In this document: positions 4,765 to 31,774 of the stretch, one piece after another
Position numbering within the stretch: the stretch's first letter is position 1
Layout of the letters: each line of letters opens with the position of its first letter
From: Leifsonia xyli subsp. cynodontis DSM 46306
Lineage (GTDB): Bacteria; Actinomycetota; Actinomycetes; Actinomycetales; Microbacteriaceae
DNA length: 64,000 bases
NCBI RefSeq assembly: GCF_000470775.1
Contig: NC_022438.1
Coordinates: forward strand, 2,356,001-2,420,000
Direction: 5' to 3'
Translations under genes and position numbers: made by a program
Notes under the pieces: model-generated
Told to the model about the DNA's origin: nothing
Databases searched by the model: none
Seen by the model: only the letters and a program-made list of their open reading frames with translations

Positions 4765-5923
4765 GGGGTGGGGTCTTCCTTCGGCGTGTCGGGGTTCTCC
4801 TGCGGGGTGTCGCCGCGCAGCGGAACACTCTGTCCGGCCTCGATGAGGCGGCACTCGTCGGGGGTGTAGATTCCCGCGGCTATGGCGGACTGGTAGCCCT
4901 GCATGCGCGCGTTGAAGTCACCGGCGATCAGGGCTGCGGTGACCGCCGTGCATTCCTGTCCCTGCGGGAGCACGTCCGGCAGGGTGAGGCGGGAGGTGAT
5001 CGCGTCCACGTAGGGTTGCAGGGTGTAGTCCAGGAGTTCGCGGGATCGGGCGGGCACGGTGGTGTAGTTCATGCCGTTGCCTTCCACGGACACGTCCACC
5101 GCCCAGGCGGGCAGGTTGCAGGCGCGCGCCACGTCCAGGGCGGACTGGGTGTGCGCGGCGATCATCAACTGCTCCGGGGCCTGCCCCATCGTGGTCGCGT
5201 TCACGGTGGCGTTGGTGAAACCGACACCACCGTTCTCGCCCGTGCGGGCGGCGACCCACCGGGCGATCAGGGCGTCGATCTGCTCCTGCGGCATCGGGGG
5301 TCCACCGGTTTGGTGCAAATGGATCGAGGGCACCGGGTTGCGGTAGGCGCGCGTCGTGGCCCGCTTCAACGCAATCGCGTCCCGAATGTCCTGCGCCGCA
5401 GTGTGCAGGATGCCCTCGTGGGGGCATCGACGCGAATCCACTCACCAGGCTTCACCCGCCTGGAATCCACCGCCAGCAGGGTCCCCGCCCCATCGGTGCG
5501 GGCCTGCCACTCGGGCACCCACGCGAACCGGGACGGGTAACCGGTAGCATACCGTTCGGTGATCTCCAGGAACGCCCGCCCGTGGAACAGCAACGCATCG
5601 ACGATCCATGCCAGTGTGATCGGGCGGGGCCGTCCGGCCTCGATCTGGGAAACCCAGCCCGGTTGCCCCGGGATCGGGATTCCGGTTTTCGTCACCTGCA
5701 ACGGGAACCGGGCGATCTGCTGGCAGATCAGGTTCCGGGCGCGGGCGATGACCGGCACCGACATCGCCTCCCTGCGTCCGACCGGCATCGTCTCGGTCCC
5801 GAACAGCTCACCCAGGGTGAGGCGGGTGAGAACATCGTCATCCCGCCACGGCGAGGCCGCCGGTGCCATCAGGGACGACTGCCGAAGACCGGCCACCACC
5901 CGAAACGGACTGAGAATTCCCAT
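4761..5923 (-). pseudogene. Phage portal protein, frameshifted
   Basis: The portal forms the dodecameric ring through which DNA is packaged. The N-terminal half (MGILSPFRVVAGLRQ, then VPVIARARNLICQQIARFPL and DALLFHGRAFLEI) is typical of HK97-type portals. The C-terminal half resumes in another frame as EGILHTAAQDIRDAIALKRAT and runs to 4761. The break lies at the G5 run 5420-5424; one additional base rejoins RVDAP to HEGIL. The ATG at 5923 was chosen over an upstream TTG (5938) because it begins the conserved domain. The stop overlaps the protease start (ATGA). Confidence 0.8.
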
Positions 5924-5961
5924 ACCCACCACCCTCAATGCGACCCCCTACACGGGGCGAA

Positions 5962-6177
5962 TCAGCGGCGTTTCCGCTGCCTGCGCCGGTACTGCTCGCG
6001 AGCGCATTCCGCGTTCGTGACGCCGGGGTGGATGGTGTGTTCGTGGCGGACGGCGACGTCGTGGAATTCGCCGCGGTCCATGGCGAAACCGTGCCAGTAG
6101 GGGCATGCGTGGCAGCGCACGACGATCAGGCTCGCGGACTCGTCGCACCAGGTGTAGTCGGTGGTTTTTCGGGGCAT
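5962..6177 (-). CDS. Small Cys/His-rich phage protein between portal and terminase
   Basis: A 71-residue protein starting MPRKTTDYTWCDESA. It has a CHACPYWHGF segment (CxxC with a nearby His), a further Cys near the N-terminus and a basic tail (YRRRQRKRR). This pattern suggests a small metal-binding or nucleic-acid-contacting protein, but no family is recognised. It occupies the short interval between the large terminase and the portal gene. The frame is intact and an AAGGACACCC stretch precedes the ATG. Confidence 0.6.
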   Translation of the reverse strand: MPRKTTDYTWCDESASLIVVRCHACPYWHGFAMDRGEFHDVAVRHEHTIHPGVTNAECAREQYRRRQRKRR

Positions 6178-6246
6178 GGGGGGTGTCCTTCTTTAGACGA
6201 ATCGGAAGATCGGTTCGGCGGGGATGGGGTCGCCGTGGTCGTAGGC

Positions 6247-7626
6247 TCATAACCCGACCGCGGAGGCTTCCGGGCCGATGATCGCTCCGGTGGAGCGGGA
6301 GCGGGAGAACACTCGAACATCCCCCGACTGGCGCATGACCAGATTCGCGAGACCGGTGGTCAGGGTGCGGGAGCCGTCGTGTTTGAGGGTGCGGGCTTCG
6401 GTCACATACCCCAGCCACGCCTCGCACGCGGTCGCGAAGTCTTTGGGCCCGGTGGTGGACGGTTTCACGTACAGGGCGCCGGACTCGTAGGCGCGCTCCA
6501 GCTCGTCGGTGATCGCCCGGGTCGGCCCACCGTCGTCCGCGGCCAGATGCGCGGGCTGCCAGTGGGCGCACAGGTCGAGCAGGAACGGCACCACCCATGT
6601 GGTCCCGCCGGCGGTGTGCAGGATGCGAGTACACGGGGCCCCGTCGATGTCGCGCCAGGTGGCGCACACCGTCGCCAGCTCGTTCCCGGGAGAAACCGCG
6701 TAGGCGATGGCCAGAGCACGGCGGGAGGGAACCTGGATGGGGTCGGCGGTCAAGGCGGCGAAGTCCGCAGCAGGCACGAGCGGGTCGATGGTTTCGGTGA
6801 GCCGGTTCATGTAGGCGCGCATCCACTCCCCGCGCGGCTGGTTTGCTGCTTCTTTCTCCAACGCGGCCTGGGTGATCGTGTTCCCCAACGCCGGATGGAA
6901 CACCCACCATGTTTTCGGTTCGTAGGGGTCCGCACCGTCGGGCATCGCCCACTCGGCGTAGAACATGTTCGGGTCTCCGGAGCGTCCGCGTTCCACGTAC
7001 TCGTTCATGAACCCGGACTGTGCCGTGCCCTGGGTTCTGATCATCCAGATTTGCGATACCCCGTCCAGGGTGGACTGTGCGGGGCCGATAGCGCCCATCA
7101 GCTCCCCACCACGGACCGCATCGTGCTTCCAAATCTCGTCCAACGTCACCAGGTGCGGTGTCTCGCCGTGGATCGCGGACGGGGAGGGGGCGAACAAATG
7201 CACACCCGACCCGTTGGCGACGGTGATCGACTCGGTGCCCTGCGCCCGCCGAATCTTGAACAAAGACGCCAACGGTGAGGCCCCCACCAGCTCGCCGAGG
7301 TCGGTGAAGCGGGCGCGGGCGTCTTTCCCGGTCTGCGCGGTGAAAAACGCTTTGACCCCCGGGCGGGTCATGATCCGATGCAACTGCACCGGCCCCACCA
7401 GCGTGGTCTTCCTCGACTGGCGCGGCACCGTGACCAACACGATCTTGTACTTGTACGACCCGTCCGGATTCTTCTCCGTCGCCCCCCTCGCCACGATGCG
7501 CTGCCACGGCATCAACGGTTTCCCCAACGCCGCGGCAAGCTTTCCGATCTGATGACCCTCCGTGGCCGCGGCCGGATCGAGCGGGGTCAGGAACCGGGGT
7601 TCAGGAGCGAACACCGTCAGCCGCAT
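6247..7626 (-). CDS. Phage terminase large subunit
   Basis: The ATP-driven DNA packaging motor and nuclease. The Walker A-like site is TVPRQSRKTTL (about residue 67), the Walker B is LVTLDEIW, and a motor coupling segment RTQGTAQSGF follows. The nuclease half has acidic motifs such as LAADDGGPTRAI. It has about 459 residues, normal for the family, with no visible lesion, one of the few intact large genes of this prophage. Start 7626 (MRLTVFAPEPRF) is preferred over an ORF extension to 7668, because the extension lies wholly inside the small terminase gene. It overlaps that gene's stop by 26 bases. Confidence 0.9.
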   Translation of the reverse strand: MRLTVFAPEPRFLTPLDPAAATEGHQIGKLAAALGKPLMPWQRIVARGATEKNPDGSYKYKIVLVTVPRQSRKTTLVGPVQLHRIMTRPGVKAFFTAQTGKDARARFTDLGELVGASPLASLFKIRRAQGTESITVANGSGVHLFAPSPSAIHGETPHLVTLDEIWKHDAVRGGELMGAIGPAQSTLDGVSQIWMIRTQGTAQSGFMNEYVERGRSGDPNMFYAEWAMPDGADPYEPKTWWVFHPALGNTITQAALEKEAANQPRGEWMRAYMNRLTETIDPLVPAADFAALTADPIQVPSRRALAIAYAVSPGNELATVCATWRDIDGAPCTRILHTAGGTTWVVPFLLDLCAHWQPAHLAADDGGPTRAITDELERAYESGALYVKPSTTGPKDFATACEAWLGYVTEARTLKHDGSRTLTTGLANLVMRQSGDVRVFSRSRSTGAIIGPEASAVGL

Positions 7627-7944
7627 CGTCCTGCAACAGGGCGGCGACAACCTCGTCCAGTGCGTCACGGCGGGTGGCTTCCGGTTGCGGCAGCGACGCC
7701 AACACCTCGTTCATCACCCGTAGCAGGTTCGCCCGCCCGCTCGGGGCACCCCGCCCGGTCGAGGAATCCAGGTCACGGGCCGTGACCCTCGCCAGCTCAC
7801 ACACACCCGCATGATGCGCCTGCACATACCCCAACCGGGTCAACTCATCAATCTGCGCCACCACCATCGCCTCCAGACCCCCACGGCCGGGACGAAAGCT
7901 TCGAAACCCGGGAGCGTCACGGATTCAACCGCATCACCACTCAT
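7601..7944 (-). pseudogene. Phage terminase small subunit, frameshifted
   Basis: The small terminase recognises phage DNA ends and loads the large subunit. The start (MSGDAVESVTLPGFEAF) and the body (QIDELTRLGYVQAHHAG, then ARVTARDLDSSTGRG) are in different frames. Restoring one base in the C5 run 7878-7882 joins VPAVG to GLEAMVVAQIDEL. An internal ATG at 7867 could still produce an 88-residue C-terminal part, so residual expression is possible. It lies directly upstream of, and overlaps, the large subunit gene. Confidence 0.7.
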
Positions 7945-8020
7945 CGCTCTCATTCCTCTCGGATCACTTTTTTTCAGGACGTTTCGGGGGGATACGGACA
8001 CGCTGCGCGGGATGTCCCGG

Positions 8021-8329
8021 CTACTCGACAGTAAAAAAATCCCGCCCGTCCTCAACGATCTCCTCCCCCGTCACCGCACGATTCCCCCGCGCCTCGTTAC
8101 ACCGCCTGTGCGCCGGGGCAAGATTCAACACGTCGTACACGGCACCCCCCTTCGAGCGGGGCACCACGTGATCGGCCGTATCCGCACCCGGGAGACCACA
8201 CAACCAACACGTGTCCCCATACGTGGCAAGCGTCAACGCCACGAACTGCTGCGCACGACGCCCACCCCACCCCGGCTGCGAAACCCCCGGCTCCGCCACC
8301 ACACCCGGACCACGACCCAGCCCACTCAC
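8021..8329 (-). CDS. HNH endonuclease
   Basis: A 102-residue HNH nuclease of the kind that sits next to terminase genes in HK97-like phages and is often needed for packaging. The ββα-metal site is visible: CWLCG (first CxxC), ADHVVPRSKGG (catalytic His pair region), DVLNLAPAHRRCNEARG (Asn, His, second Cys). The GTG start at 8329 overlaps the upstream TGA (GTGA), so translation is probably coupled; longer upstream extensions overlap the neighbouring gene and were rejected. The frame is intact. Confidence 0.88.
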   Translation of the reverse strand: MSGLGRGPGVVAEPGVSQPGWGGRRAQQFVALTLATYGDTCWLCGLPGADTADHVVPRSKGGAVYDVLNLAPAHRRCNEARGNRAVTGEEIVEDGRDFFTVE

Positions 8330-8622
8330 CACACACCACCATCCGGGTCGAAACGGGCGGCCTCGAACACCTGGAACACCGGCCGCGGATGGGTGCGCCA
8401 ATGCTCGACGAGCTCCGCCGACGCATACGCATACGCCCGAGCGGCAGGACCAAGGAACAAACTGTAGGGGTCGATACCCAACCGCCTCCCCCAAGCGTTC
8501 AACATCGCACCCCGCGTCTCCTCCTCCGCCACCACATACGCCGCCTGCCGCACCACCTCGAACTCCTCACGCAGGCCACGCCACCGCGACACGGCGAACC
8601 CGAACACCGGCGAGGTCACCAC
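8326..8622 (-). CDS. Conserved phage protein upstream of HNH gene
   Basis: A 98-residue soluble protein beginning MVTSPVFGFAVSRWRGLREE and rich in helices (FEVVRQAAYVVAEEE, AARAYAYASAELVEHWR). No catalytic motif is seen and the function is unknown. Its GTG start overlaps the stop of the gene before it, and its stop overlaps the HNH start, so it belongs to the same tightly coupled operon. It may assist packaging, by neighbourhood only. Confidence 0.65.
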   Translation of the reverse strand: MVTSPVFGFAVSRWRGLREEFEVVRQAAYVVAEEETRGAMLNAWGRRLGIDPYSLFLGPAARAYAYASAELVEHWRTHPRPVFQVFEAARFDPDGGVW

Positions 8623-8936
8623 ACACCACCCGATACCCTGGGGCCGTGCCCACCATCGACGCCACCCGGCTTGCCCTTACCCTCACCCTCGTCCTGGCCG
8701 CGGCCGGTCTGATCACCGTGCTCGGCATCCTGATCCAGTTCGCGATCATCCGCACCGCCGTGCTGTCGGCTCTGCGCCAACACGCCCACGAGAACCGCGC
8801 GCACCCGCCCGGCACGGGCACGCCGCCGCTCACCCAGCAACAGACCGTAACCACCCCAGGCCAGGACCACGAACAGCAGCAGCAGCCACCCCGGCGTCTC
8901 CAGATCGGGGACACGCTCCAAACACGCCGCGATCAC
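8616..8936 (-). CDS. Small phage membrane protein, unknown function
   Basis: A 106-residue frame with one clear transmembrane segment near the N-terminus (GWLLLLFVVLAWGGYGLLL) followed by a basic stretch and a charged, low-complexity tail. Start and stop overlap the neighbouring genes by 4-7 bases, which supports it being real. An opposite-strand frame here also has a hydrophobic stretch, but it does not fit the operon. The function is unknown. Confidence 0.5.
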   Translation of the reverse strand: MIAACLERVPDLETPGWLLLLFVVLAWGGYGLLLGERRRARAGRVRAVLVGVLAQSRQHGGADDRELDQDAEHGDQTGRGQDEGEGKGKPGGVDGGHGPRVSGGVW

Positions 8937-24229: not shown

Positions 24230-24871
24230 TTAGGTGCCCCCGATCTCGTGCGAAACCGGGCTCGCGAAGGTCGCCGCGATCGCGCGGTCCTCGTCTGGCG
24301 ACGGCGTCCCGTCGCGGGCCGCGGACTGGAGCGCGCGGTAGACAGTGGCCCGCGAGGTGCCAAGCTCCTCCGCGATCTCGCGGACGGAAGCGCCCTGATC
24401 GCGCAGCGCGAGCGCCCGCTCGACATTCATGTCGGACAGGGCGCGCGGACGGCCGCCGAGGCGACCCCGCGCCCTCGCGGCATACACCTGCACCAGTGTC
24501 CGCTCGCGGATCAGATTGCGCTCGAGATCGTTGAAGGCCGAGATCGTGCGGATGATCGCCGCCCCTTCCGTCCCCCCGGTGTCCAGTCGCTCGGCGAGGG
24601 TGAGCACAGCGACGCCGCGCTGGGCGAGCAGTTCGAGCAGCGAGAGCACGGACGGGGAGGTGCCGCCGAGGCGATCCAGACGCCACACCACCAGCCGGTC
24701 GCCGCGTCCGAGCGCATCGAGCGCCCGCGCGAGCTCCGGCCGCCGGGGGCTCGAGGTGTTCAGGCTGATGTCCTCGAAGATCGTCCCCGCACCCTGCTGG
24801 CGCAGCAGGTCCCGCTGGAACTCTGCGCTGTGCTCCAACGGCCCCACGAAGATGTATCCGAACACGGCCAT
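24230..24871 (-). CDS. Serine recombinase-like protein lacking catalytic residues
   Basis: A 213-residue relative of resolvase/invertases. The overall plan is kept: an N-terminal catalytic-type domain with RLVVWRLDRLGG and AFNDLERNLIRERT, then a C-terminal Hin-like HTH (LRDQGASVREIAEELGTSRATVYRAL). But the usual YxRVS at the N-terminus reads FGYIFVGPLEHS: the catalytic Ser is Gly and the neighbouring Arg is Phe. The DRLGR motif reads DRLGG, losing a second active-site Arg. The frame is intact, so this may be a DNA-binding protein derived from a recombinase. Confidence 0.85.
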   Translation of the reverse strand: MAVFGYIFVGPLEHSAEFQRDLLRQQGAGTIFEDISLNTSSPRRPELARALDALGRGDRLVVWRLDRLGGTSPSVLSLLELLAQRGVAVLTLAERLDTGGTEGAAIIRTISAFNDLERNLIRERTLVQVYAARARGRLGGRPRALSDMNVERALALRDQGASVREIAEELGTSRATVYRALQSAARDGTPSPDEDRAIAATFASPVSHEIGGT

Positions 24872-24966: not shown

Positions 24967-26328
24967 TCAGACCTGTTCGAGGGGGGTGTCCCGTGTCTCT
25001 TTGGCGAAGAGATAGGTGATGGCGCCGACGAGGAAGCAGATTCCGAAGAAGGCGAAGCAGGGGGCGATGACGGCCAGGGTCACGGACTGCTTGACGATGT
25101 TGCCGCCGATGGCCGCGCCCATGATGAGAGGTCCGATGATCTTCGCGGTGGCTCCGGTTCCGTAGCCGAGGCCGAGGCCGGTGGAGCGGGCCGAGGTGGG
25201 GAACTGCTCCGCTCCGAAGGGGTTGAGGACACCGAAGGCTCCATCGCCGAAAGCCATCGCGATGGTGATGCCGGCGAAGAACATCCACGCGTTTCCCGCG
25301 GAGGCGACGGCGAGGAAGCAGCCGGCGGCGCCGAGGAGCCCGTAGCCGAGCATGACGTAGCGGCGGCCGATGACGTCCGCGAGCCACGCCGCAGACAGCC
25401 GCCCGAGGAGATCGGCGAGAGAGACGACGATGAAGAGGTTCGCGACAGTGTCAGCGAAGAATCCGAAGCCCTCCCCGAGGAGGGTCTGACCCCAGGATTG
25501 GATCGCGAAGCCGCCCATGATGAAGCTGAACGATCCGATCGTCACGACCAGCAACGACGTGAGGTAGGTCGAGAACAGCACCCGGTAGGTGGTGTTCTCG
25601 GCTGCCGGCTGGTGCGCGGGCAGGGCGCCGACCCGGTCGACGGGCACCTGCAAGGCCCATGCCAGCGAGGCCCGTGCGTCTTGTTCGCGACCACGGCTCT
25701 GGAGGAACCGCGGCGACTTGGGGACGAACGCCAGCCAGATCAGCAGCAGTGCCGGGATGCACCCCAGCAGCACGAGCATGCGCCAGTCGGCGCCGACCGC
25801 CTTCTGCGCGAGCGAGCCGATCAGCAGACCTACGTGGATGAACACGGACCCGAGTCCGGCGAGGAAACCTCGCTGTTTGCGGGGGACGAACTCCTGGACA
25901 TAAGGGACCGAGACGATGTTCAGTCTTCCCACCCCGATGCCGACGACGATGCGGAGGACGGCGAGGACGATCCACCCCCCATCCGGGGTGAGCAGTGTCA
26001 ACGCCGTGCCGGCGACGAACACCGACACACAGCATACGAACGTTCATTTCCGTCCGATCCGGTCGCCGAAGTGCCCCCAGAAGATCGCGCCGATCACGGT
26101 GCCCAGGCCCGCACAGGCGAGGATGGCGCCGGCCTCGAACCCGGTCAGCTTCCACGGTTCGGTCAGCAGCGACACGATGAAACCGACGAGGAACAGGTCG
26201 AAGAACTCGGCGAGGTTGCCGAGGACGACCACCCCGATGATGCTCCATTGGTTGCGGGTGAGCGGGCGGGTGTCGATCTGCGCGTATGCGGTGCGGGTGT
26301 CGGAATCTGCGGCGAGATGGTCAGACAT
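24967..26328 (-). pseudogene. MFS sugar/organic-acid transporter with in-frame stop
   Basis: A 12-span MFS permease of the sugar/metabolite-H+ symporter kind. The start at 26,328 follows GAGGAGAAC. Spans 1-2 and the loop motif GHFGDRIGRK are intact, then an in-frame TGA at 26,044-26,046 interrupts; the same frame resumes directly with TFVCCVSVFVAGTALTLL. A CGA-to-TGA change would explain it. The remainder includes the second-half motif ADVIGRRYVMLG. It is the last gene of the ula-like operon and presumably imported the substrate. Confidence 0.85.
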
Positions 26329-26360
26329 GGTGTTCTCCTCGTTGAGTGTGACGTCCGGAG

Positions 26361-27311
26361 TTACCGGACGATGTCTGTGGTGTGTGGGATATCGAGGTCG
26401 GGAACGGCGATGTGGGTGAGGTCGCCGTGGTGGGTCAGGGCGAAGGATGCGGCGCGCTGACCACATCCGATCCCTGCGAGCAGGTCACCGGCGAGCAGGC
26501 CGTGGATCGTGCCTCGACGAAGGCGTCGCCGGCGCCGGGGCGGTCGACCACGGGGACTCGCTCGACGTCGAACTGACCTTCACCGATGTCCCCGCTGGAG
26601 ACGTAGACGCCGTTGACCTGGTCCGTCGAGATGACGTGCCGGCTGCCGAACCGGTCCCGAAGGGCTCGGGCCGTCTCCGGCCCCGTGCCCTCGATGCCGA
26701 AGACGGCTTTCGCGTCGGTGCGCGAGCAGAACAGCATTGCCGCCTTCTCAGCGATCGGCGCCAGTGTGCGGGCGGCCTCGTCGCCGGACCAGAGCGAAGT
26801 GCGATGGTTGACATCGAGAATCACCTCGATGCCCCGTTCATCGGCCTGGTCGACCAGGCGATACAGCACCGCCGCTGTGGTCTCGGTCAAAGCCGCAGTG
26901 ATGCCGGTGACGAAGACGGCTTTCGTGTTCAGCAGAGCCTCCCAGTCGTAGTGGTCGGCCGTGGTGGTGCGGAACGGGGTGTTGTGCCGGTCGTAGAGGA
27001 CCTTGCCGGGCATCGGGGACTCGCCCGGCTCCATGAAGTAGAGGGCGACGCGCCCGGTGGGGGTGCGGATCACATGCGAGGTGTCGACCCCCACGCTTCG
27101 GTACTCCTGAAGGACTCGATCGGACAGATCCCCGATGAGCAGGACCGTCGACCAGGCGGTGCGGCGACCGAGCTGGGCGAGAAGCCCCGCTACGTTGGCC
27201 TCACTGCCGGCGGCGGCCATGCGCAGGTCTCTTGCCGAGGCCAGCCGATCGCCATGGGCGACGGTGAGGCGGAGCTGTCCTTCCCCGATTCGTGGTGAGG
27301 TCGTACATCAT
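26361..27311 (-). pseudogene. PfkB-family sugar kinase, two frameshifts
   Basis: A ribokinase-like carbohydrate kinase, presumably phosphorylating the imported sugar acid or lactone. The start MMYDLTT (27,311) leaves frame at the TT pair 27,289-27,290 and the body begins IGEGQLRLTVAHGDRL in another frame. The middle carries GSEANVAGLLAQLGRRTAW. The PfkB signature DRPGAGDAFV is present, but at the CC pair 26,512-26,513 the frame shifts again; restoring one base gives GTIHGLLAGDLLAGIGCGQR to a TAA at 26,361. Both lesions would prevent a normal product. Confidence 0.8.
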
Positions 27312-27343
27312 GCGCTCACTCCGCTGCTCGCCTGGCGAGTGCC

Positions 27344-27980
27344 TTAGCGGGTGTGATAGCGGTGGTAGTTCGCTTCGATCTCGGCGTCCGGCAGGACCTC
27401 CACTGGCCCGAGACGCTCCGCGATCGCAACCGTGCGGGCCACGTCTTCGACCAATCACAGCGGCCTGCAACGCCTTCTCGATACTGGCGCCGATGGTGAA
27501 CACGCCATGCTGGCGCATCAGGATGGCCGGCGACCGGCCGATGCGGGAAAGCATCTCGCGCCCGATCGCGTCCCCACCGATCGGCGCATAGCCGCCGCAC
27601 GGCACCGGTCCTCCGAACTCGTCGGCGATCGCGGTCATGCAGCAGGGGATCTCCCGCCCCACCGCGGCGAACGCCGTGGCATAGGTGGAGTGCGTGTGGA
27701 CGATGCTGTTCACATCGTCTCTGCCGCGGTAGATCCCCAGGTGCGACGCGGTGTCCGACGACGGCCCGTGCTGCCCTTCGACGACTCTGCCTTCGACGTC
27801 GACGACCACCATGTCCGCAGGAGTCATCACATCATATCGCACGGCGGAAGGCTTGATGACGATGACCCCGGCTTCGCGGTCGCGCGCCGAGAGGTTGCCT
27901 CCCGTCCACGCCACAAGGCCCGCGCGAGCGAGCGCAAGGTTCCCCTCGCACACGTCTTTCTTCAACTGCTCAAGCATCAT
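27344..27980 (-). pseudogene. Class II aldolase / ribulose-5-phosphate 4-epimerase (UlaF/AraD-like), frameshifted
   Basis: An AraD-type zinc enzyme. Phosphate and metal site motifs are present: TGGNLSARDREAGVIVIKPS, SSDTASHLGIYR, and the His pair in SIVHTHSTYATAFA, with the third His in RQHGVFTIG. Near the CC pair 27,451-27,452 the frame breaks; removing one base gives VEDVARTVAIAERLGPVEVL and the typical ending EANYHRYHTR at 27,344. About 36 C-terminal residues are lost, including the final Tyr/His region. Function by context: L-ribulose-5-phosphate 4-epimerase. Confidence 0.82.
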
Positions 27981-28926
27981 CGCTCCTCACCGTTCGTCGC
28001 GGCCGACGCCGCTCGTCATGGACCACGGGGATGCCGGCGTCCGCCAGCCACAGAGCGACGAGATCCCGCGAACGGGCCGCCACGACCGCCGAGTCGTCGG
28101 CATCGTCGTTCCACATCTCCAACATCAGCCGCCCGCACCAGTCCTGTCTGGCCAGTTCGCTGAAGGCGACGTCGAACTGCGCGATTCCCTCACCGAACGG
28201 CACACGCCGCGGTTCGCCCACACGCACATCTTTCACATGCAGTGCGACCATGCGCCCCGCGCCGACGGCGAGCTCGGCCCGGGTGTCCAACTGCTGCTCG
28301 GCCAGATTGCCGATATCGGGATACAGTTGCAGCCACGGTGACCCGATCTCCTCGACAACCCGCATGGCGGCGCCGATCGAGGTGATGTCGTGGCCATCGA
28401 CGTTCTCTATCCCTAGGATCACTCCTTCTCGCGCGGCCAGTGCCACCGCCTGTGCGAGCACGTCGACCCACCGCCGCCGTTGCCCCTGGTCCGGCTCCTC
28501 GTAGTAGGCGTAGTAGCCCACGACCTGCAACACGGACATGCCGAGGTCGTGTGCCAGGCGAATGCCGTCGCGGTAGATCGCAGCAGCCTCGGCACGCACC
28601 GCCGGATCGGCGGAGCCCGGGCCGATGCCGCGATGCGCCGACAGGCACAACCCTCCTAGCCGCACGCCGGCATGGGCGGCGCTGTCGCGCACCTGACGCC
28701 GCAACGACGCGGGCCACGCGAGTCGGGCCCGTCGAGACGGGGTCTCGTCGACGCTCAGGTCCACGAAAGAGAATCCGGCCCCCGCCGCCTCTGCGAAGAA
28801 CCGGTCCCAATCCCGGGGAGAGCGCGGATTCCTCAACGCCTTCTCGTATATCCCGAGGCTGACAGCCGAAGAGGACCGTGAAGACTCCACACCCGGAGCG
28901 GATGCGTCCACGACGACGGCCATCAT
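27970..28926 (-). CDS. L-xylulose/ribulose-5-phosphate 3-epimerase (UlaE-like)
   Basis: A 318-residue TIM-barrel sugar isomerase/epimerase. The start of the fold is LGIYEKALRNPRSPRDW, very close to UlaE (GIYEKALP type). Likely metal ligands are Glu in ILGIENVDGHD, Asp in LQLYPDIGNLAEQ, His in LHVKD and Glu in LMLEMWND. The frame is intact. It overlaps both neighbours (27,970-27,980 and 28,923-28,926), showing operon coupling. A basic C-terminal tail (HDERRRPRRTV) follows the domain. Confidence 0.85.
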   Translation of the reverse strand: MMAVVVDASAPGVESSRSSSAVSLGIYEKALRNPRSPRDWDRFFAEAAGAGFSFVDLSVDETPSRRARLAWPASLRRQVRDSAAHAGVRLGGLCLSAHRGIGPGSADPAVRAEAAAIYRDGIRLAHDLGMSVLQVVGYYAYYEEPDQGQRRRWVDVLAQAVALAAREGVILGIENVDGHDITSIGAAMRVVEEIGSPWLQLYPDIGNLAEQQLDTRAELAVGAGRMVALHVKDVRVGEPRRVPFGEGIAQFDVAFSELARQDWCGRLMLEMWNDDADDSAVVAARSRDLVALWLADAGIPVVHDERRRPRRTVRSDDA

Positions 28927-29588
28927 CGCTCCCAGGCCTTCGCGATGGCCGCTCTCATCGCGGCTGCCGAATGCCCGGGGTCGTGAGAGCTGGTGATCTC
29001 TCGTCCGACGATGACCACCCCGACAGGAAGACCGGCGAATCCCGGAAGATCGGCAGCCGTGAACCCGCCGGTGACGCTCACCGTGAACCCCAGCTCAGCG
29101 AGCTCGGTCACTCTGTCCAGATCCGCGGTCGTCCACTCGAGCGTCCCCGCGGCTTCGCGGTCACGGGATCGTTTGACGATCGCATGCTCGACTCCCGCAT
29201 CTCGCCACGCCCGTGCGCGGTCGAGGCTGTAAAGGTCGTCGTTGGTCTCGACCTGGACCTGCCCGTCGAACTCCGCCGCTGCGGCGACGACCTGGCGGAT
29301 CGTCGTCAAAGACGCACCGGCGACGCAACTGACCCAATCCGCCCCGGCTTCGAAACAGTGGCTGGCGATGAGGCCCCCCGCCTCCGCGATCCGGACGTCG
29401 GCGAGGACGGTCTTGTCAGGGTAGAGCGCGCGGACCTCGCGGACGGCGCGCAGCCCTTCACCGAGGATCAGGATCGTGCCGCACTCGATCACATCGACCT
29501 CCCCGGCAGCGCGGCTGAGCGACCGCAACGCCGAGGGAAGATCGAGGACGTCCAGAGCCAGCTGGAGAAGCGGGGCGGGGAGGCTCAT
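28923..29588 (-). CDS. 3-keto-L-gulonate-6-phosphate decarboxylase-like (UlaD family)
   Basis: A 221-residue member of the OMP-decarboxylase suprafamily. It matches UlaD closely along its length: LQLALDVLDLPSALRSL, EVDVIECGTILILGEGLRAVRE, CFEAGADWVSCVAGA, GFTVSVTGGFTAADLP. In the active site, however, the canonical DxKxxD is DVRIAE, so Lys is Arg and the last Asp is Glu, and the HRSR motif reads KRSR. The Glu of the QxE strand (VQVETND) remains. The frame is intact. The reaction may therefore be shifted within the family. Confidence 0.85.
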   Translation of the reverse strand: MSLPAPLLQLALDVLDLPSALRSLSRAAGEVDVIECGTILILGEGLRAVREVRALYPDKTVLADVRIAEAGGLIASHCFEAGADWVSCVAGASLTTIRQVVAAAAEFDGQVQVETNDDLYSLDRARAWRDAGVEHAIVKRSRDREAAGTLEWTTADLDRVTELAELGFTVSVTGGFTAADLPGFAGLPVGVVIVGREITSSHDPGHSAAAMRAAIAKAWER

Positions 29589-29592
29589 GCAC

Positions 29593-30589
29593 TCACCGCT
29601 TCCCGCGCATCGCGAAGAATCGCTGGCCGTTGCCCATCAGCAGCTTGTCGACGTACTCCGCAGAGAACCCCTCGGCGAGCATCCGCGGCCCGTCGACGCT
29701 GGCGTTGAAGTCGACGCCGCTGACGGCGCCATACGCCTTCTGATAGGAGCGTTTGCCGGAGTCCGTGCCCAGGAGCAGACGGTCCTCGAAACCTGCCTCA
29801 CCAAGCTGGCGCATCTGCGCGATCCGGTTGGAATCGGGCTGGTACTTGATCCGGTACGTGCCGTCGAGCTCCAGGTACACACCCTCATCGAGAATCTGAC
29901 GCAGATAGAACACATCGGCGTTGCGCTGGATGTGACCGCACGCGATCCGATCCGGCGGGACCCCCATACGCGTCAACTCCTGGGCCTGTTCGAGACCGCA
30001 GGTCCCCGCCGTGGTGTGGGTGTTGATCGGCGCCCCCGTCTCGATCGACGCGAGAGCAGCAGCCTGCATGCACTTGCGCTCGAACGGCGTGATCGCGCCA
30101 TAGGCCGTCGCCACTTTGATGCAGTCCGCCTTGTACGATGTGCGCTCCACGATCGGACCGGAGTAGTCGTGGCGGTCGATGCCTTCTTCGATGTCCGCGA
30201 TCAGCAACTCGGCGATCGTGTCGACGCTGTACCGGTTCACCCAGTGCGACTGCGTCTCCAGGTACACATGCTCCCGATGGAACCCCGTCACCGCGATCAC
30301 CGTGAGCCCTTCCACGGCCCGCGCCACTTCGGCCAGACGTTCCAGGTCCCGCCCGCAGTTCGCCGGGCACATGTCCACGACGGTGCCACCGGCCGAAGAC
30401 CACCTCTTCGAGGCCTCGACGAACGAGGTGGCCTCTGCGATGGCCTTCGGGACATCGTCGAGCTGATGATCCTTGTCCAGATAGACCTCACCCGCGCCGA
30501 CCCGAATGAGATGGTCATGCGCGTTGACCACACCCAGCGTGACCGGATCGACGTCCCCGGCAATTGTGCGGGCGAAAGGGCTGCTCATC
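29593..30589 (-). CDS. Phosphotriesterase-family lactonase
   Basis: An amidohydrolase-superfamily barrel. ATG 30,589 follows AGAGGAGATC. The binuclear metal site is complete: HDH in VVNAHDHLIRVG, the bridging Lys in DCIKVATAYG, His in INTHTTAG, His in IACGHIQRNAD and the catalytic Asp in LLLGTDSGKRS. Many bacterial members in sugar operons hydrolyse phosphorylated or free furanose lactones and not phosphotriesters. Being the first gene of a ula-like operon without a PTS or UlaG, it is the best candidate to open an aldonolactone such as L-ascorbate. The frame is intact. Confidence 0.85.
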
Positions 30590-30718
30590 TGATCTCCTCT
30601 GATGACTCGCTTCACGGGGCTGGTGATGTCCTAGTGGGAAGCCCGCCTCGTCGCCTCGTGCGACGTTGCCCTCGATGACACGAACGTTAGGGGTCCTCCC
30701 CTGTCGTGCGCAGCGCAC

Positions 30719-30734
30719 TGATGCACATCTGTTC
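30719..30734. promoter_or_regulatory. Candidate SorC-regulator operator, copy 1
   Basis: TGATGCACATCTGTTC lies in the divergent region between the lactonase gene and the regulator gene. The same 16 bases recur with one mismatch at 30,804-30,819. Spacing is 85 bases, about eight helical turns, compatible with looping. Confidence 0.5.
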
Positions 30735-30803
30735 GCTGACTGCGGGAAGGGAGAACGGAAGACGAGCGCGATTCTCGGGTCTGCTCCAGCAGCTCGCCGA
30801 CTA

Positions 30804-30819
30804 TGATGCACATATGTTC
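30804..30819. promoter_or_regulatory. Candidate SorC-regulator operator, copy 2
   Basis: TGATGCACATATGTTC, one mismatch from copy 1. The core TGCACATATGTTCA is a near-perfect palindrome and contains the regulator's ATG (30,814), suggesting autoregulation. No ribosome site precedes that ATG. Confidence 0.5.
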
Positions 30820-31774
30820 ATCGCAGACGATGCACAGGTCGACCGTCAGCACGCCGTGAAGCTGGTGGAAATCGCACGAATGTACTACGAGGGCAATCTC
30901 AGCCAGGCGGAGATCGCGTCCCGCGTGGGATACTCACGCCCCACCATCTCGCGACTGCTCTCCGAAGCGCGCGACCGCGGAGTGGTGCAAGTCCGCATCG
31001 TCCGCCCCCGAACGGGTCGTGGCCCTCGAGCAGGCTCTGACCGAGCGCTACGGCCTGTCCCACACACGGATCGCCGACCCCCTCGATGCCATGTCCGTTC
31101 AGCCGCAGGTCGCGCGCTGCGCCGCGGACCTGATCGCGAGCGAATGCCGCCTGGACAGCGTGGTGGCCGTGTCCAACGGACGCTCGGTCTCCTCGACCAT
31201 CGCCGCCCTGCCCGATCTTCACCTGCCACGGACACGAGTCGTGCAGATGATCGGCAGCACCCCCTATTCGGACATGATGCACGACTCCAGCGAGACCTGC
31301 CGCCAGATAGCCCTCAAACTCGGCGGCAGCCTCGTGACCCTCCCCACACCGCTCATCGTTTCGAACGCCGCCGCCGCACGGTCGCTCATGAGCATACCTC
31401 AGGTGCGGTCCGTGCTCGCGGAGTCCGCGCGCGCCGACATCGCTCTCGTCGGGGTCGGCGCCGTCCACGATGGATGCTCCGGCAGCATCTTCTCGGGCGT
31501 CGAATCAGCAGGCCTGGCAGCACAGCTCATCAGAAGAGGCGCCGTCGCCCACATCTGCGGGCACCATATCGACGCCACCGGCGCACATGTGGAGACCAGC
31601 CTGTGCCACCGCACCATCGCTGTCACACCCGAGACCCTCCGCGCCATCCCGCTCGTGGTCGCCGTCGCCTGGGGCGCAGACAAGGTCCCCGCGACCCGCG
31701 CGCTCCTCGCCGGCGGATACCTCCACGCGCTGGTCACCGATCGCGATACCGCCATTGCGCTCGCATCCGACTGA
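30814..31774 (+). pseudogene. SorC/DeoR-type sugar-binding transcriptional regulator, frameshifted
   Basis: The N-terminal HTH (KLVEIARMYYEGNLSQAEIA, then SRVGYSRPTISRLLSEARDR) is in one frame. The sugar-phosphate-binding domain (RVVALEQALTERYGLSHTRI through VVAVAWGADKVPATRALL) is in another. The break is at the C5 run 31,005-31,009; a sixth C would join VRP to PERVVALEQ. It is divergent from the operon it should control. As read, only the DNA-binding part would be made, which could act as a constitutive or dominant variant. Confidence 0.82.

Follow-up and report, generated by a model that had tools for sequence, protein, structure and literature searches.

How might an actinobacterium degrade L-ascorbate when the characterized fermentative route takes the vitamin up via a phosphotransferase system (PTS)? 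This question is raised by a seven-gene cluster in the genome of Leifsonia xyli subsp. cynodontis DSM 46306, located at positions 24967–31774 of the 64 000 nt stretch of contig NC_022438.1 that was analysed here (the window). The cluster encodes homologues of UlaD, UlaE and UlaF, together with a permease of the major facilitator superfamily (MFS), a PfkB-family kinase, a phosphotriesterase (PTE)-family lactonase and a divergently transcribed SorC-type regulator. We propose that it is a PTS-free L-ascorbate catabolic operon that works in the order permease, kinase, lactonase, decarboxylase and two epimerases, and that it is decaying in the window genome; we put the probability of this reading at roughly 0.65. 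An earlier note, made from the DNA letters alone, had named these genes, and Pfam and NCBIfam matches located every one of them where it had been placed. Family matches likewise bear out the lower pathway of UlaD, UlaE and AraD/UlaF types that the note had described.

In intact relatives, the permease would import free L-ascorbate and the PfkB kinase would use ATP to phosphorylate its 6-OH group, yielding L-ascorbate-6-phosphate. The PTE-family enzyme would then open the phosphorylated lactone to 3-keto-L-gulonate-6-phosphate, the task performed elsewhere by UlaG. A UlaD with an altered active site would decarboxylate this product to L-xylulose-5-phosphate, which UlaE and AraD/UlaF would epimerize to D-xylulose-5-phosphate, whilst the SorC regulator would sense an intermediate. 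Such a gene set could convert ascorbate into D-xylulose-5-phosphate without any oxidation or reduction. The substrate, the order of steps and each catalytic step are proposed from sequence comparison.

A conserved gene set without a phosphotransferase system

Besides the window and one divergent operon (L035), 33 loci were compared, the repeat entries L004, L005, L058 and L088 being excluded. Searching named genomes with the PTE protein as query yielded 17 loci (70–78 % identity), and further loci came from other genome searches. The earlier note had suggested looking for the same seven genes in intact form in other actinobacteria, and such operons were found: all seven genes lie ≤8 kb from the PTE gene in 24 of the 33 loci, where the matches are open save for stops at the extreme alignment ends. 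Across all 33 loci, PTE and UlaD are always present, followed by UlaE and PfkB (31 each), SorC (30), MFS (28) and AraD (27). The gene order of the window is reproduced exactly in 14 of the complete loci; AraD follows the permease in six and lies on the opposite strand in two, UlaE and AraD come last in L096, and kinase and permease stand ahead of the regulator in L049. The source taxa include Corynebacterium, Dermabacteraceae, Bifidobacterium, Bombiscardovia, Flaviflexus, Cellulomonas, Microbacterium, Arachnia and other Propionibacteriaceae, several being metagenome-assembled.

The co-occurrence of the seven genes is beyond chance, and the gene set is rare. In a phylum sample of 396 genomes, 44 had a UlaD match, of which only those of the window genome and genome G348 exceeded 50 % identity. 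PTE matches below 1e-50 occurred in 16 genomes out of 396 sampled from the order and in 6 out of 394 from the class; both counts include the window genome.

The absence of a PTS and of UlaG, as read by the earlier note, held at the genome level: at E 0.001, the window genome (2 686 418 bases) yields neither an EIIC-GAT protein (PF03611, the UlaA family) nor UlaG. Escherichia coli UlaA, UlaB and UlaC had no match at 1e-8 in 39 fetched loci, although EIIC-GAT proteins do occur outside these loci, in 9 of 21 genomes. Searches for UlaG were negative in 34 of the 35 genomes, several of which are draft assemblies; the same query did detect it in G210, the genome of L049.

Two operons have a different transporter. 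In G015, whose genome comprises 927 303 bases, PTE, UlaD, UlaE, AraD and PfkB are kept and followed by a different MFS protein (L033:3817–9598); that a reduced genome should retain the pathway is notable. This neighbouring MFS has the galactonate transporter subfamily as its closest match, at 249 bits (cut-off 395), and in G069 a peptide-type ATP-binding cassette (ABC) transporter adjoins the operon. The usual MFS was not found at 1e-20 in either genome, and we infer that the alternative transporters serve the pathway. The kinase is retained in both despite the exchange, which fits uptake of a free compound followed by phosphorylation. Elsewhere, two loci of family f120 (L091 and L094) keep PTE, UlaD, PfkB and MFS, with no UlaE or AraD match within 19 kb, whilst the divergent L035 operon of genome G085 (L035:1450–10181) encodes SorC, MFS, PTE, UlaD (Arg64/Arg67, Ser192), PfkB, a split transketolase, AraD and UlaE, the transketolase being an addition to the gene set.

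The lactonase and the decarboxylase

The lactonase gene (29593–30615, minus strand) is whole and its product matches PF02126. Scores against the phospho-furanose lactonase family NF045706 are 237.6 and 232.4 bits, neither reaching the cut-off of 630 (the Mycoplasma gallopavonis protein scores 686.3). The best solved relatives are a Mycoplasma synoviae amidohydrolase (3msr/3ovg) and then a Listeria lactonase (3pnz), and the predicted model most resembles 3msr/3ovg and the lactonase Lmo2620. The model has a mean pLDDT (predicted confidence) of 79.6, with residues 1–9, 41–50, 253–256 and 290–300 below 50; given these weak stretches, we make no claim on side-chain geometry.

In the M. synoviae enzyme, we take Lys217, Lys244, Tyr245, Arg275 and Tyr278 to contact the phosphate, and the M. 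gallopavonis sequence has fitting residues at the expected intervals (27, 1, 30 and 3). Each of the 34 distinct operon PTEs has the corresponding signature R-K-Y-K-Y, versus K-K-Y-R-Y in the mycoplasmas, a difference of two conservative swaps. The positions that we presume to be metal ligands are complete in 33 of the 34, L052 being cut by the contig end. Among 40 PTE rows of the comparison group the exact signature occurs only in L058, which coincides in position with operon locus L089; a close form occurs in six more (three mycoplasmas, L105, L109 and L110). The identity of the enzyme as an organophosphate hydrolase or quorum-quenching lactonase was rejected on the basis of its nearest relatives, and the K-Y...Y pattern appears in none of 27 PTE rows from the same bacterial family (L006–L032).

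The genomic context of the mycoplasma relatives bears on the order of the steps. By annotation, three mycoplasma records (L106–L108) carry PTE-UlaA-UlaB-UlaC-UlaD-UlaE-UlaF, with the PTE labelled as a phospho-furanose lactonase, and no UlaG match was found in these records (one of which, W01, comprises only 409 935 bases). A PTS yields a phosphorylated product, and the mycoplasma PTE should therefore act after phosphorylation. In Listeria, a PTE with the form R-K-Y-R-Y lies directly behind an ascorbate-type PTS (L109:4187–7903). The same form is found on a Deinococcus aetherius plasmid (L110:3449–9479), where the neighbouring genes encode an FGGY kinase, a KDPG-type aldolase, a sugar isomerase and two oxidoreductases and may belong to a further phospholactone pathway.

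Locus L049, a single and metagenome-assembled case, carries UlaG itself. Kinase (5299–6249), MFS (6271–7632) and UlaG (7657–8712) follow one another on a single strand, and then come regulator, PTE, UlaD, UlaE and AraD. With 579 bits, the UlaG protein exceeds the equivalog cut-off of 306. UlaG acts on L-ascorbate-6-phosphate, and its position behind kinase and permease suggests that ascorbate-6-phosphate is the kinase product. The earlier note had counted an intact relative with UlaG or a PTS against its proposal; UlaG occurs in one of the 33 loci, no UlaA match was seen in the fetched loci, and PTE relatives beside a PTS occur outside the actinobacteria. We read both kinds of case as strengthening the ascorbate interpretation rather than refuting it. 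The note had also placed ring opening before phosphorylation. Its ascorbate-type substrate stands as our proposal, but its order is now less likely: phosphorylation most likely comes first, because the PTE is nearest to phospho-furanose lactonases and bears the phosphate-contact signature, and because of the mycoplasma PTS context and the UlaG of L049.

The second distinctive protein is the decarboxylase UlaD (28923–29588, minus strand; whole), which scores 219.9 bits against NF009832, below the cut-off of 250. Its predicted model has the fold of 3-keto-L-gulonate-6-phosphate decarboxylase (KGPDC) and is closest to KGPDC 1kv8. In E. coli UlaD numbering, the window protein has Arg64, Glu67 and Lys136 where E. 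coli has Lys, Asp and His. All 34 distinct operon UlaDs (27 clusters at 90 % identity, two lactobacillus rows being excluded) have Arg64 and Glu67 in place of the KGPDC pair Lys64/Asp67, which we take to be catalytic; solved KGPDC structures are titled as K64A and H136A mutants. The divergent L035 protein has Arg64/Arg67, and the other 17 tree rows have Lys/Asp, the pair seen in E. coli UlaD and SgbH, all 28 rows resembling 3-hexulose-6-phosphate synthase (HPS), three mycoplasmas and five more KGPDC-type rows. Among 38 Arg/Glu rows, repeats included, 25 have Lys and 13 have His at position 136. Glu33, Asp62, Glu112, Arg139, Thr169 and Arg192 are retained.

A maximum-likelihood tree of 52 rows, including 7 of the 28 HPS-like ones, put the Arg/Glu rows to the same side of one branch, which had a support of 95/80 and recurred in 96 % of 200 bootstrap trees; a long-branch warning concerned L034 and L035 among others. 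A single change thus suffices, which is no proof of one origin but is consistent with it. In 34 of the 35 genomes, a search with E. coli UlaD at 1e-10 detected the operon protein alone, and so the Arg/Glu variant should be the working enzyme, which would probably decarboxylate 3-keto-L-gulonate-6-phosphate. The mycoplasma UlaDs keep Lys/Asp, and a PTE lactonase alone therefore does not accompany the change.

Three other accounts of UlaD were discarded. It is not an HPS, as its residues are Glu112 and Arg139, like those of KGPDC, whereas HPS-like rows carry Asp at the first position and, in the aligned rows, Ile/Leu at the second. Decay in the window alone does not account for Arg64/Glu67, which is found in all 33 relatives. 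Finally, no coexisting second Lys/Asp KGPDC was seen in the 35 genomes, save for a weaker second match (31 %) in G213.

Alternative pathways and known systems

Several observations weigh against the proposed route. The PTE, UlaD and kinase all score under NCBIfam cut-offs, and in 9 of the 33 loci the neighbourhood is missing one or more of the seven genes, two of these loci having neither epimerase (three of the nine, L041, L045 and L052, end near a contig edge, and L041 also lacks the regulator despite 10 kb of upstream sequence). UlaG is found in only 1 of 35 genomes, and there it accompanies PTE, which may be no plain UlaG substitute. In the Listeria record, with its PTE relative by an ascorbate-type PTS, none of the 16 features displayed is a UlaD. 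The closest solved relatives of the intact kinase are 2-keto-3-deoxygluconate (KDG) kinases (2afb at 123 bits, and 1v19), so that it might phosphorylate an opened acid. The mycoplasma lactonase has reportedly been active on pentonolactone-5-phosphates, not ascorbate-6-phosphate, and the change in the UlaD active site could mean a different substrate.

The kinase observation is the starting point for a reversed order, in which ring opening of free ascorbate or a related lactone by PTE precedes phosphorylation of 3-keto-L-gulonate by the kinase. KDG kinases act on an open-chain sugar acid, and it is because of these relatives that such an order can be envisaged. The GAGD motif is found in all 33 kinase rows (32 loci, L087 twice), as are the D-R and N-x-R-x-x-L-W motifs common to KDG kinases; the best NCBIfam score is 202 bits, far below the cut-off of 440. 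Furthermore, the E. coli yiaKLMNO-lyxK-sgbHUE operon couples a kinase with SgbH, SgbU and SgbE and TRAP-type uptake without a PTS, and its LyxK probably phosphorylates 3-keto-L-gulonate. Nevertheless, the phosphate-contact signature in every operon PTE, the presence of a PTS beside PTE relatives in mycoplasmas and Listeria, and the UlaG behind kinase and MFS in L049 all argue against lactone opening first, and we consider it unlikely. The same type of pathway might instead serve another sugar lactone or sugar acid, to which the Arg64/Glu67 UlaD would be adapted. The distribution of the active-site pairs, the pairing of UlaG with PTE in L049 and the pentonolactone-5-phosphates reported for the mycoplasma relative would all suit this account. 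On the other side, UlaE and AraD indicate L-xylulose-5-phosphate, and the remaining KGPDC positions are kept. There was no YiaK match, and in 20 loci no further recurrent family beside the operon resembled a dehydrogenase, the family members being annotated in part, and the substrate should therefore already have the oxidation level of 3-keto-gulonate. The only extra family by the operon occurs in 8 of the 20 loci, in scattered places, with an ABC ATPase as one member. We regard a different substrate, too, as improbable.

The phosphorylation-first ascorbate route that we favour shares its lower pathway (UlaD, UlaE and UlaF homologues) with the E. coli ula operon (ulaG, ulaABCDEF), which has the UlaABC PTS and UlaG in place of permease, PfkB kinase and PTE lactonase, and a different UlaD pair. 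Like the yia/sgb operon, the window operon combines a kinase with SgbH, SgbU and SgbE homologues; unlike it, it lacks the TRAP transporter, YiaK reductase and LyxK kinase, whilst yia/sgb has no annotated lactonase and its SgbH has Lys/Asp. The mycoplasma ascorbate PTS operon (MS53_0025 type) likewise combines a PTE lactonase with UlaD, UlaE and UlaF and no UlaG, but it has PTS uptake, no annotated kinase, a Lys/Asp UlaD and a PTE only ~36–37 % identical. The replacement of UlaG by a PTE lactonase is shared with mycoplasmas, and entry by permease and kinase with an Arg/Glu decarboxylase is the difference. Two plasmid clusters show other combinations: in Levilactobacillus brevis pBRV522 (L145:2161–7858), FGGY kinase, UlaG, UlaD, HAD hydrolase and PTS IIC are consecutive, so that another kinase lies by UlaG, and on a Lacticaseibacillus paracasei plasmid (L142:1595–8286) a fructose-type PTS and phosphogluconate dehydrogenase accompany UlaD, UlaE and UlaF, with no UlaG annotated there.

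It is about an even chance, in our estimation, that actinobacteria possess a PTS-independent vitamin C route comprising an ATP-dependent PfkB L-ascorbate 6-kinase, a PTE ascorbate-6-phosphate lactonase and a KGPDC in which Lys/Asp was exchanged once for Arg/Glu. If so, it would show how vitamin C could be used by actinobacteria, including Bifidobacterium and Corynebacterium. A novel activity would be assigned to the kinase, the PTE-family gene would gain a better annotation name, and the active-site motif of the KGPDC superfamily would be less fixed than thought, the Arg/Glu exchange being a natural test of which residues the superfamily really requires.

The decaying operon of Leifsonia

The host genome is a single contig, and the window has a G+C content of ~67 %; three genus-mates in the family sample of 85 genera have genomes of 3.7, 3.8 and 4.2 Mb. 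Gene integrity was judged by alignment to L087, an intact operon from a genome of the same order. Three genes, encoding PTE, UlaD and UlaE, are each in one frame and nearly full length. The UlaE-like L-ribulose-5-phosphate 3-epimerase (27970–28926, minus strand) scores 312.1 bits against NF009688, just under the cut-off of 317, and 227.7 against NF009689, above the cut-off of 200.

The other four genes are broken, which the earlier note had not set out explicitly. The AraD/UlaF-like L-ribulose-5-phosphate 4-epimerase (ORF 27201–27980, extent 27311–27980, minus strand; NF005123 at 260.4 bits, above the cut-off of 251) is split over two frames, with the change after about residue 175 of 222. Homologues of UlaD, UlaE and UlaF are thus found together, as in ula-type operons, with UlaF broken. 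The PfkB kinase (ORF 26435–27220, aligned extent 26364–27289, minus strand; PF00294) is also split over two frames, changing after about residue 265 of 316. The MFS permease (ORF 24967–26466, aligned extent 24967–26310, minus strand; PF00083/PF07690) runs in a single frame through one in-frame TGA at 26044–26046. The SorC/DeoR-type regulator (30841–31771, plus strand, divergent) aligns in two pieces, 30841–31008 and 31010–31771, with a change of frame near 31009; the plus-strand ORF at 31019–31774 holds its SorC sugar-binding domain (PF04198, with LsrR/DeoR-type matches).

The window operon is therefore a relic decaying in the Leifsonia genome, and with four of seven genes broken the pathway as a whole is most likely unable to run there. 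These lesions might also suggest a pseudogene cluster without any function in this organism. That account is no rival as regards the intact relatives, and with PTE, UlaD and UlaE whole, single enzymes could still be made; we consider it very improbable. Just downstream of the broken permease lies a resolvase (serine recombinase) gene at 24230–24871 on the minus strand.

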